NCBI GenBank assembly: GCA_947627845.1
Contig: CANQXQ010000004.1
Location: 1 to 36,045, forward strand
Source: an uncultured Bacilli bacterium
GTDB lineage: Bacteria > Bacillota_I > Bacilli_A > RF39 > UBA660
Length of the DNA stretch: 36,045 bases
Direction: 5' to 3'
The translations under genes and the position numbers were made by a program. The notes under the pieces were generated by a model. The model saw nothing but the letters and a program-made list of their open reading frames with translations. It searched no databases and was not told where the DNA came from. This document shows positions 2,388 to 28,784 of this stretch, piece after piece. Positions within the stretch are counted from its first letter, which is position 1. Each line of letters opens with the position of its first letter.

Positions 2388-3311
2388 ATGACATATACGA
2401 TTAAAGTAAAGGAAGAAATTGTAAAAAATCCCCTAAATGAAACAGAAAAAATATGTGAATTATCGGGCTTTTTACGCTTTTCCGGCCTATTTAAAGATAA
2501 TATTAGTATAACTTTAGAAAATGCCAGTGTCACTAGACGCATATATTGCCATTTTAAAGAATTATTTAATATTCAGCCCAAAATTATAATTCGTAATCAA
2601 AAACGATTTAGGGTTAAACAAATATACATATTAGAAATAAATGAGAAAGTAGAGCATATTCTTAAAGTTTTAAATGTCATGGAAGATAATAAAAAAGTTT
2701 TACCGGAAAATTACTTATTTTCCACTAAAGAAGAAATAATTGCTTATTTGCAAGGAGTATTTTTAGCCACGGGAACTATCAATGATCCTGCCGTAAGTGG
2801 TTATCATTTAGAAATAGTCACTAATTTAAATCGTGAAGCTATATTTATTGTTAATCTCTTTAAAAAAATTAATATAAATGCCAAATATTTAAAAAGAAAT
2901 TCAAAGTATATGGTATATATTAAAAATGCCGAAGTAATTAGTGAAATTATAAGAATGTTTAAAGCCACGCAAAGTTATTTTTATTTTGAGGACATTCGTA
3001 TTTATCGTGATCATAAAAATATGGTAAATCGCCTTAACAATTGTGAAATTGCTAATCAAGAAAAGACTATTAGCTCTGGCTTAAAGCAATTAGAAGATAT
3101 TAAATATTTAAAGGACAACGATTTATTTAGTTTACTTGATGATAGTACTAAATTAGTCCTTGAATATCGAGAAAAATACCCTGAAACTTCCCTAAAAGAA
3201 CTAGCCGATATTATTACTATGGAAACCGATTATAAAATAGGTAAAAGTGGGGTTAACCACCATTTTATTAAGGTTAGAAATCTTATTAAAAAGCATCAAG
3301 CTAAAGAATAA
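2388..3311 (+). CDS. whiA: DNA-binding protein WhiA
   Basis: LAGLIDADG-like N-terminus (YLQGVFLATGTINDP) and C-terminal HTH (SLKELADIITMETDYKIGKSGVNHHFIKVRNL); yvcK-whiA synteny. Confidence 0.93.
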   Translation: MTYTIKVKEEIVKNPLNETEKICELSGFLRFSGLFKDNISITLENASVTRRIYCHFKELFNIQPKIIIRNQKRFRVKQIYILEINEKVEHILKVLNVMEDNKKVLPENYLFSTKEEIIAYLQGVFLATGTINDPAVSGYHLEIVTNLNREAIFIVNLFKKININAKYLKRNSKYMVYIKNAEVISEIIRMFKATQSYFYFEDIRIYRDHKNMVNRLNNCEIANQEKTISSGLKQLEDIKYLKDNDLFSLLDDSTKLVLEYREKYPETSLKELADIITMETDYKIGKSGVNHHFIKVRNLIKKHQAKE

Positions 3312-24811: not shown

Positions 24812-25627
24812 ATGACGTTAAATATGATATGGGAAGTCACGACTAAAATTATTGATATTGGAGTTGTGTGGCTCGTATTCTATTTTATTTTAAAAAATAT
24901 AAAAAATAATATTAAGATGGTTTTAATCTTTAAAGGCGTAATCTTAATCTTAATTATTAAATTATTAAGTGATTTATTAAATTTATATACGGTTGGTATA
25001 ATTTTACAATATTGTTTAGAATGGGGACCTTTAGCTATTATTGTGATCTTCCAACCAGAAATAAGAGGGGTATTAGAATCCATAGGTCGTACCCAATTAC
25101 TCGGTCGTCATAAAATATTAACTATTGATGAAAGAGAAAAAGTAGTTTATGAAATAATGAAAGCCATCGAATACTTTAAACGTAATCGTATTGGGGCTTT
25201 AATAGTTATTGAAAGAGAAATTTCGTTGCAGGAATATATTGAACCGGCGACTAAAATTTATGCCGATTTATCAAGTGACTTATTAGAGACTATTTTCTTC
25301 CCTAATGGACCATTACATGATGGGGGAGTAATACTAGAGGGTGATCGAATTACTTGTGCCGGCGCTATTTTTAAAACTAGCTTAAGTGGTAGTATTTCTA
25401 AGAGATTAGGAACTAGACATAGAGCGGCCTTAGGTATCGCCGAAGAAAGTGATGCCGTTGCTTTAGTAGTTTCCGAAGAGACTGGTCGTTTAAGTATAGC
25501 TTGTGATGGTGAAATAAATTACAATTTAACTTTAGATGAATTTAGAATGTTATTAATTGACTCTCTAAACCCAAAACCTGAAGTATTCTATGAAGCCGAA
25601 AATAAAGAGAGTGATGGTGAAGAATAA
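24812..25627 (+). CDS. cdaA: Diadenylate cyclase CdaA
   Basis: N-terminal TMs, VIFQPEIRGVLESIGR, GPLHDGGVI (DGA-type motif, G variant), GTRHRAALGIAE. Confidence 0.95.
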   Translation: MTLNMIWEVTTKIIDIGVVWLVFYFILKNIKNNIKMVLIFKGVILILIIKLLSDLLNLYTVGIILQYCLEWGPLAIIVIFQPEIRGVLESIGRTQLLGRHKILTIDEREKVVYEIMKAIEYFKRNRIGALIVIEREISLQEYIEPATKIYADLSSDLLETIFFPNGPLHDGGVILEGDRITCAGAIFKTSLSGSISKRLGTRHRAALGIAEESDAVALVVSEETGRLSIACDGEINYNLTLDEFRMLLIDSLNPKPEVFYEAENKESDGEE

Positions 25628-26997
25628 TGAAAAGTATTTTTAATTTTTTTAAGAAACTTATTTTAGGTATTTACCATTTATTAGATAAATTAATTATTAC
25701 TCCCATTAGTAGATTAATTTTTAATATAAGGGAATATTTAAAATCACATAATTTAAAATTAGATTATATTATTAATCGTCCTCATTTTATTATTTATGTT
25801 TCTTTAGTTTTAGCTGTAGTTATGTTTTTATTAATCGATTCGCATGTTATTACTTTAGTAGAATCCGAAGCCGAAGTTTTAACTAATGTTCCAGTTAAAG
25901 CTGATTATAATGAAGAAGCCTATGTCGTCGAGGGTATTCCCAAGACTGTTGATATTGTTTTAATAGGTCGTAAAAGTGATATCTATTTAGCTAAACGTTT
26001 AGGAACTAATATGGTTTTATTAGATTTATCAGATTATACCGCTCGTAGTCAAGCTTATCGGGTTTATCTATCATATACTAAATCCATCGACTCTATTAAT
26101 TATAAATTAGATCCCTCATACGTTTCTGTAACCATTAAAGATAAAATAAGTGTAACTAGAACTATTGATTATGATTTAGTTAATGTTGATTATTTAAATG
26201 AACGTTTAAGTGTTAAAAGTGTTGAACTTGGCAAAAGTGAAGTAGTAGTAAAAGGTAGTGAAGACTCATTAAATAATATTGCTACCGTTAAAGCCTTAAT
26301 CGATTTACGAGATAATAGCTTAAATGATGCCGGAACTTATGATATCGATAATATTCCTATTTTAGCTTATGATAGTAAAGGAAAAATAATTGAAGAAGTA
26401 GAAATTGTCCCCACGACTATGACTGCCAGTATTACATTAGATACATACTCTAAAAGTGTTCCAATAAATGTTTTAACAACGGGTAATCTAGTCACTGGTA
26501 AATCTATTGCCTCTATTTTAATAAATAATCAAAATGCTCATTCTGTCACTATATATGGTGATGAAGAAACCATTAGTGGTATTACTAGTGTTCCTGTAAC
26601 TATTAATGTTGCTGGTCAAGGAGGAAATGGAACTCGTTCTTATAATGTTACGATAAATAAACCAAGTGGAGTAAGAAGTATAAGCGAAACTAAAGCTACA
26701 ATTACTGTAACCTTTGGTGATGAAAAACAAAAAGAAGTTAACATCTCTAATATTTCTTATCAAAATTTAGCTAGTGGTTTAGTTCCTAATATTGTTGGAA
26801 CTGATAGTGTTAATGTTATTGTAAAAGGTGTTCAATCAGTAATAGATGGTGTAACAAGTAGTAATATCAATGCTTATATTGATCTTGAGGGCTATGGTGT
26901 TGGTGAATATGATGTAGAAGTAAAAATAGATAGTAAAGATCCTCGTATAAAATATGTTGTATCATCAACAGTAAAGGTTCGTATCACCAATGATTAA
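25627..26997 (+). CDS. cdaR: CdaR (YbbR-domain regulator of CdaA)
   Basis: One TM then tandem YbbR-like repeats (VPVKADYNEEAYVVEGIPKTVDIVLIGRKSDI...); overlaps cdaA stop. Confidence 0.9.
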   Translation: MKSIFNFFKKLILGIYHLLDKLIITPISRLIFNIREYLKSHNLKLDYIINRPHFIIYVSLVLAVVMFLLIDSHVITLVESEAEVLTNVPVKADYNEEAYVVEGIPKTVDIVLIGRKSDIYLAKRLGTNMVLLDLSDYTARSQAYRVYLSYTKSIDSINYKLDPSYVSVTIKDKISVTRTIDYDLVNVDYLNERLSVKSVELGKSEVVVKGSEDSLNNIATVKALIDLRDNSLNDAGTYDIDNIPILAYDSKGKIIEEVEIVPTTMTASITLDTYSKSVPINVLTTGNLVTGKSIASILINNQNAHSVTIYGDEETISGITSVPVTINVAGQGGNGTRSYNVTINKPSGVRSISETKATITVTFGDEKQKEVNISNISYQNLASGLVPNIVGTDSVNVIVKGVQSVIDGVTSSNINAYIDLEGYGVGEYDVEVKIDSKDPRIKYVVSSTVKVRITND

Positions 26998-27010
26998 CGA
27001 ACCTTTTTTA
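26973..27010 (+). terminator. cdaR terminator
   Basis: AAAGGTTCG (26973-26981) / CGAACCTTT (26998-27006) plus T-run; stop codon in the loop. Confidence 0.88.
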
Positions 27011-27047
27011 TATTTTCATAACTTAAAGTTTATGTTATACTAAATAT

Positions 27048-27153
27048 AGGTAAGCGTTAGGAAACTGACGTCTACTTAATGGTTTAAGTGGACGCTTATA
27101 CCAATATTATTACTGTTCGAACAATAATAATAAATGGTTTAGGCGCCTTTTTT
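27048..27153 (+). ncRNA. Candidate structured ncRNA A (three-way junction plus terminator)
   Basis: Promoter TTTTCA-17-TATACT with upstream TG (27013-27041); P1 GGTAAGC/GCTTATACC, P2 GTTAG-GAAA-CTGAC, P3 GTCTACTTAA-TGGT-TTAAGTGGAC with no unpaired junction bases; alternative terminator GCTTATACC/GGTTTAGGC before T6. Confidence 0.65.
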
Positions 27154-27164
27154 AGCATAATAAA

Positions 27165-27183
27165 AAAGCCCCATAAAGGCTTT
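27165..27183. terminator. Bidirectional terminator between ncRNA A and B
   Basis: AAAGCC (27165-27170) / GGCTTT (27178-27183), A-run on one side and T-rich on the other. Confidence 0.75.
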
Positions 27184-27191
27184 CTTTTCGT

Positions 27192-27298
27192 CAAAAAAAC
27201 ATTTAACTTTTGCTTGAATTAGTAGAATTTGATATTAGTTAAGTAAAGGAAGTATATCAAAGAATGGAAAAGAATATTCAAACAAATTAAATGTTCGA
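27192..27298 (-). ncRNA. Candidate structured ncRNA B (rod with internal and terminal pyrimidine-rich loops)
   Basis: Minus-strand TTGACA (27333-27328), 17-nt spacer, TAGTAT; helices 27287-27295/27198-27206, 27276-27286/27209-27219, 27254-27261/27228-27235; T-run after closing stem. Confidence 0.6.
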
Positions 27299-27350
27299 TT
27301 GTGTATACTACTACAAAAAATATATTTTGTCAAGTATAAATTACAAAAAA

Positions 27351-28493: not shown

Positions 28494-28784
28494 ATGAATA
28501 AAAATTTACCTAGAGTATATGTAAGTCCTATTAATAAAGAGTTAAGAAACAATAAAGATGTTTTTTATAGTTCTGAGTCCCGCCATGAAAGTAATATCAA
28601 TATTCCTCAAAAAATCAATGAAATTTTTGCCAACCCCCACCATGTTTATAAAAGTAAAGTTCATATAACTACTAAAGATAATAGTTTTGATACTGTAATT
28701 GTTGGTCAAAATAATCATGAATTATTAACATTAGACGGTTCTCGTATTAATATAAATGATTTAATTGATATTGAAAGAATATAA
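28494..28784 (+). CDS. Hypothetical protein (small beta-domain C-terminus)
   Basis: ORF of 96 aa; C-terminus VHITTKDNSFDTVIVGQNNHELLTLDGSRININDLIDIERI. Confidence 0.55.
   Translation: MNKNLPRVYVSPINKELRNNKDVFYSSESRHESNINIPQKINEIFANPHHVYKSKVHITTKDNSFDTVIVGQNNHELLTLDGSRININDLIDIERI

Follow-up and report, generated by a model that had tools for sequence, protein, structure and literature searches.

A structured RNA downstream of a cdaR-like gene is probably an orphan antitoxin of a multi-copy type I toxin–antitoxin family in uncultured Bacilli

The window analysed here is a 36,045-nt stretch of contig CANQXQ010000004.1 from an uncultured Bacilli bacterium. A short structured RNA is encoded on its plus strand (27048–27153) behind a cdaR-like gene (25627–26997, plus strand; an open reading frame whose name comes from a first-pass annotation and fits the sequence). 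The first-pass annotation had proposed a three-way junction of helices P1, P2 and P3 in which the 3' strand of P1 could alternatively enter a terminator, as in a riboswitch, and had remarked that no plus-strand gene follows for 1.3 kb. The remark holds: the next plus-strand open reading frame of at least 80 aa begins at 28494.

Fold and distribution of the RNA

The promoter and helix elements of that proposal are present where it had placed them: the extended −10 promoter element TGTTATACT (27033–27041, plus strand), which is found in the sequence by a scan for TG plus −10 and is kept in paralogs, GCTTATACC (27094–27102), GGTTTAGGC (27136–27144) and a T6 run (27148–27153). The RNA, called RNA II below, would start at about 27048. 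It matches covariance model R1 at 27047–27161 with 114.7 bits (E 3.7e-22), the window copy being one of the model's own seed sequences, and its 106 nt fold at −35.5 kcal/mol (z −6.2, 0 of 200 shuffles as good). Folded separately, the first 55 nt adopt a three-way junction with P2 and P3 (−21.8, z −4.8) in which P1 is formed in its inner part only, and the 3' 64 nt adopt the terminator (z −6.5).

Covariation and folding both support two elements of RNA II. The first is a conserved 5' hairpin (27048–27077, plus strand), in which 27048–27052 pair with 27073–27077 and 27054–27060 pair with 27065–27071 (AGGUA-A-GCGUUAG / CUGACGU-C-UACUU). P2 is confirmed as part of this hairpin, which uses the 5' strands of P1 and P3 otherwise than the three-helix model does. 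The second is the intrinsic terminator (27090–27153, plus strand), composed of GGACGCTTATACC / GGTTTAGGCGCC and an inner hairpin, followed by T6. A hypervariable linker (27076–27089, plus strand), recognised by paralog divergence within genomes, corresponds to the loop side of P3. The window RNA is real, is structured and has its own terminator. An Rfam search returned no family at the gathering cut-off; the best sub-threshold match, Srn266, reached 29.5 bits against a cut-off of 63, and the weak matches look like chance.

A DNA search of 100 relatives revealed that the element is repeated. Genomes G001 and G014 have three full copies each, further copies are present in G015 and G025, and shorter matches comprising the promoter and 5' end occur elsewhere, including other contigs of the window genome. 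The pattern AAGCGTTAGGN{0,12}CTRRYGYCTAC, run against 85,462 species genomes, hit 20 stretches, all in MAGs whose titles read 'uncultured Bacilli bacterium' or 'uncultured Mycoplasma sp.', with many isolates named 'Lapin'; some records of the genus derive from samples bearing this name (rabbit). We built covariance model R1 from 11 copies and also searched with a second model, R2. R1 finds RNA II in 33 of the 36 genomes of the genus. Over 195 genomes of the family, a run with stricter filters that serves as a specificity control as well, it matches only the two members of the genus and none of the 193 others. A DNA similarity search against phage and plasmid sequences gave no match. As far as searched, the putative type I antitoxin family described below is confined to one genus of uncultured Bacilli. 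An integron attC or mobile-repeat reading, considered because copies stand in tandem, was set aside on inspection, as RNA I and an open reading frame lie opposite each copy.

In an alignment of 11 copies, the 5' hairpin and terminator contain eight pairs with two-sided changes, a number matched by one of 500 shuffles, whereas the three-helix structure contains two, against a shuffled mean of 2.0. In alignment A3 (73 distinct copies), two-sided changes, at a level reached by none of 500 shuffles, occur at 30 of 33 pairs, among them 9 of the 10 pairs of the 5' hairpin and all 12 of the terminator stem, and slid controls collapse; A3 leans toward the structure, since its copies were gathered with the covariance model and the alignment was fitted to the model structure. 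The type B set (14 copies), aligned with unconstrained MAFFT, has two-sided changes at 6 of 21 pairs, with cells-with-change and covariation score both at 0 of 500.

These data separate the parts of the first-pass annotation. Its core stands, namely an undescribed structured RNA that is terminated independently and shows conservation and covariation in relatives; the 5' hairpin and terminator covary, and the three-way junction does so no more than shuffles. The junction is seen in the single-sequence fold of the first 55 nt, but with inner P1 pairs only. The outer pairs of P1 are broken in 3–4 of 11 close copies, P3 is confirmed at its base only, and the other copies do not repeat the mutually exclusive P1/terminator layout.

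The linker behaves differently from the helices. Among close paralogs within one genome (60 pairs), its divergence is 0.387 (39%), compared with 0.03–0.04 for the arms, 0.074 for the terminator and 26% for the flank, so that the linker is 5–10 times more variable than the helices. In par loci, the variable DRa/DRb sites have been proposed to separate paralogous pairs (PMC7472228). The linker of RNA II is probably a pair-specificity element as well, and the simplest reading of its variation would be diversification that keeps paralogous pairs apart.

The peptide gene on the opposite strand

On the opposite strand of the copies lies a second RNA, RNA I. It opens with the motif TTTAAGCGTTAGGACT...GTCTAC, as RNA II does, and has the coding sequence for a small basic peptide, for example MKFLVSLKEILIKIISFSKLKKAPCSIIIIVSNSNNVGISVYTKK (G014) or MSKVQAIVILLRIKIKTLIFFNQCPFIRK (G001). 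An antisense open reading frame of at least 24 codons with a fixed end under RNA II is present in 82 of 106 distinct copies; shuffle controls give 14 ± 4, or 37 ± 5 when RNA II is kept and the flank alone is shuffled. The peptides form one alignable family of 29–47 aa (median 40 aa) with a charge of +6. In their N-terminal part outside RNA II, pN/pS is 0.65, indicating only mild purifying selection. Their hydropathy is moderate (best 15-residue mean 1.4), weaker than that of a classical membrane toxin. Comparison with Pfam, NCBIfam, PHROGs, PADLOC and PDB gave no family match, with a weak match to DUF5552 (Pfam) below the cut-off. Outside the genus, the peptide profile yields seven weak matches, none accompanied by an RNA II match and some within long open reading frames, which we treat as chance.

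The terminator stem and T-run of RNA II are antisense to peptide codons AAA AAG ACG TCA... (KKTS) and GTT AAC GTC TAC (VNVY). Because the C-terminal half of the peptide gene overlaps RNA II, the peptide motif (KKTST, VNVY) is possibly imposed in part by the terminator. The 'conserved peptide motif' should therefore be read cautiously, as part of it may be constrained by the RNA.

RNA I is itself predicted to be strongly structured. For G014, the fold of full-length RNA I has −87.2 kcal/mol (z −8.3): the 5' leader and the 3' end of the same molecule form about 25 bp, and a hairpin covers the Shine-Dalgarno sequence. Pairing of the 5' and 3' ends is also predicted for RNA I of G001 and of three loci in the window's own genome. 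The leader is a copy of the RNA II 5' arm: at the 122 informative positions, those at which the arm of an element departs from the commonest form, it agrees with its own arm in 117 cases and with the commonest arm in 5. Since the leader both copies and co-varies with the arm, RNA I can close 5' to 3'. This co-variation spans about 250 nt and owes nothing to the RNA II alignment, because the leader lies outside RNA II; no other single observation argues as strongly for a functional RNA I/RNA II pair.

The peptide gene is almost always found together with RNA II. We obtained 98 matches to the peptide profile in the genus, of which 87 overlap RNA II at E ≤ 0.01. Of the other 11, ten have an RNA II match under a less stringent threshold (contig ends truncate two of these), and the eleventh is situated at a contig end and is outside the RNA II count (97/98). 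Conversely, 24 of 106 RNA II copies are without the antisense open reading frame, some of them through contig ends. A peptide that does harm when the RNA is absent would be expected to leave such an asymmetry.

Antitoxin reading, alternatives and the decayed window copy

Because the antisense RNA I encodes a basic peptide elsewhere in the genus, we read RNA II as an antitoxin. The RNA in the window is probably RNA II of a genus-restricted, multi-copy type I toxin–antitoxin family, present here as an orphan. Type I systems contain a gene for a small peptide and an antisense RNA that overlaps it; this arrangement is found at these loci and has decayed in the window copy. Type I toxins are under 60 aa, hydrophobic and charged at the C-terminus; the size (29–47 aa) and charge (+6) of the peptides agree with this, and their hydropathy is only moderate. 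The loci would thus represent previously unlisted small toxin–antitoxin pairs, carried in multiple copies by a genus of gut Bacilli.

The multi-copy family, the structure and its covariation, the antisense frame, the leader/arm co-variation and the toxin decay are computed results. The mechanism, in which transcription, toxicity, antitoxin action and the role of the linker are inferred, can be outlined as follows. An intact locus would have two promoters facing each other. RNA I (∼250 nt) would encode the cationic peptide of 29–47 aa, and RNA II (∼105 nt), transcribed from the opposite strand, would be the complement of the entire 3' half of RNA I, C-terminal toxin codons and stop included. 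Two predicted structures would keep RNA I closed: the pairing of its 5' leader with its own 3' end, and the hairpin over the ribosome-binding site. Loops, the hypervariable linker among them, would be the first points of contact between RNA II and RNA I, and the resulting pairing would block toxin production. In the window, the toxin has been destroyed by a one-base deletion and by the disappearance of the 5' half of its gene, with RNA II keeping its promoter, helices and terminator. The dual coding and the hypervariable linker lead to clear predictions on how near-identical toxin–antitoxin pairs could coexist without cross-talk.

The state of the window locus is evident from the minus strand. 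The toxin gene remnant (27079–27174, minus strand; toxin HMM E 0.006, and alignment) comprises the C-terminal part in a shifted frame with an in-frame stop, and the HMM match contains TAA. The RNA II terminator is antisense to this coding remnant. Relative to the G014 and G001 loci, the remnant carries a 1-nt deletion, and homology is gone upstream of 'CTAAAAAAGGCGCC' (KK motif), where the terminator of another RNA follows; the toxin 5' half and the RNA I promoter are missing. With the toxin reduced to a remnant and RNA II intact, the window copy is therefore an orphan antitoxin, and a decayed toxin beside an intact antitoxin offers a direct example of the erosion of such a pair. On contig C1 of the same genome (L022:2892 onward), a second RNA II copy lacks the linker and terminator after GTCTACT and may represent another stage of decay.

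Does the orphan still act? Within the toxin–antitoxin reading, the chance that it is a decaying relic, transcribed but functionless since its own toxin is dead and no other toxin in the genome matches its linker, falls just short of even. The deletion and truncation of the remnant speak for a relic, as do the predicted duplexes: window RNA II pairs at −184 kcal/mol with its own RNA I and at −121 and −102 kcal/mol with the type-A RNA I of G014 and G001, but far more weakly, at −55 to −61 kcal/mol, with the other, intact RNA I species encoded elsewhere in the same genome. Against this, promoter, 5' hairpin and terminator of the window copy are all intact. We consider relic status and an acting RNA II about equally likely; if it acts, the duplex predictions favour shielding from incoming type-A copies over control of resident ones.

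The peptide itself might be non-toxic, for example a membrane regulator, a signal or a defence effector, with RNA II as its ordinary cis-antisense regulator. The failure to match a known toxin family in the five libraries searched, the moderate hydrophobicity, and the frequent small XRE neighbours with an XRE frame in the toxin's place at some loci (see below) would all be compatible with such a role. However, 97 of 98 peptide matches come with antisense RNA II, whereas many RNA II copies face a broken peptide frame, and the paralog-specific hypervariable linkers fit a need for orthogonal pairs, which makes a harmless peptide improbable.

The ligand-sensing, riboswitch-like RNA of the first-pass annotation, in which P1 would compete with the terminator, has next to no probability left: the junction in the 55-nt fold and the overlap of the terminator stem with the P1 3' strand are in its favour, but we reject it, and a c-di-AMP sensor with it, because P1 is unconserved, with covariation no higher than in shuffles, and no gene follows in cis (no plus-strand open reading frame of at least 80 aa for 1.3 kb). 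Neither in the window nor among its relatives did we find a conserved aptamer helix that competes with a terminator upstream of a regulated gene. The relatives show an RNA antisense to a small-peptide mRNA, and cdaR is connected to it by neighbourhood only, as copies lie at many unrelated sites, each opposite a peptide gene. A hypothetical riboswitch is thus replaced by a testable antisense system in nearly every genome of the genus.

Relation to known systems and genomic surroundings

The antisense toxin–antitoxin reading places the loci close to par(pAD1) and the Fst-Ldr group, in which a convergent toxin mRNA (RNA I) and a short antisense RNA II share a bidirectional terminator and direct repeats, and RNA I forms a stem that sequesters the Shine-Dalgarno sequence and a 5'-end helix (PMC7472228). 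Our loci share the convergent RNA I and short RNA II, the repeats common to both RNAs, the weakly conserved interaction sites proposed to keep paralogous pairs apart and, as predictions for G014, G001 and the own-genome loci, both RNA I structures. In contrast to par, the RNA II terminator lies within the toxin open reading frame and is not a shared bidirectional one, the repeat is an inverted copy with the same sense in both RNAs where par has the DRa/DRb direct repeats, and RNA II has ∼105 nt compared with ∼40 nt. Pfam and NCBIfam gave no match to an Fst/Ldr signature, and the peptide alignment has no conserved Trp between transmembrane segment and charged tail.

Clostridial type I modules of Clostridioides difficile, such as CD0956.2-RCd10 and CD2517.1-RCd8, have overlapping convergent toxin and antitoxin genes in many copies per genome, and the type I peptides of this organism are small, basic, unannotated and without homology to known toxins (PMC6563280). 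Overlapping convergent genes, multiple copies and small unannotated basic peptides recur in our loci, which differ in lacking a match to any toxin family of the libraries searched, in being dispersed across one genus of uncultured Bacilli and in adjoining tandem XRE genes rather than CRISPR arrays or prophages.

In Escherichia coli, the Sib RNAs are multi-copy antisense RNAs whose variable recognition parts set the specificity for their Ibs partners; the Ibs peptides are some 19 aa long, and their entire open reading frame lies within the overlap with the Sib RNA. RNA II resembles them in copy number and variable parts and differs in peptide size and in overlapping only part of the frame. That the loci form a distinct type I class, characterised by an antitoxin terminator in toxin codons, a self-locking mRNA, linkers as identity tags and tandem XRE genes, with orphans as anti-addiction shields, is a tentative proposal that we consider rather unlikely.

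The minus strand beyond the remnant encodes a further RNA. A strong promoter, TTGACA-17-TAGTAT (27333–27305), precedes an RNA of ∼140 nt with a terminator at 27183–27160 (whole unit 27160–27333, minus strand). This RNA shows ∼89–91% identity over 145–205 nt in at least eight relatives and folds into one long hairpin with a large central bubble, similar to 6S RNA, with no Rfam match; its terminator adjoins the toxin remnant. Between the cdaR-like gene and the 6S-like RNA (26998–27160 in the window; L033:1828–4797), inserts differ from species to species and include several toxin–antitoxin copies in L033 and large open reading frames with GTSxNPY-like tails. Because the inserts differ by species, the interval looks like an insertion hotspot.

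Small XRE genes lie upstream of RNA I, on its strand and within 500 nt of the RNA II 3' end, in 30 of the 86 copies with enough flank; on the same side, the other strand carries none in these 86 copies. They often occur as two in tandem, and spacings near 200–245 and 435–468 nt recur. At a few loci (the second and third copies of G015 C22, and G017 C1), an XRE open reading frame occupies the toxin's place in RNA I. Examples of the small XRE (HTH_3) genes are L024:1937–2182 and 2580–2846 and L033:2309–2542 and 2842–3075, with others at L105, L106, L179 and elsewhere. Directly upstream of RNA I promoters, near L034:2238, L024:2232 and L033:2140, we observed a recurring sequence, TTGTCGAACGATTTTTCTTG / ATCGTTCGACA..TTCGACAT, which could be an operator.
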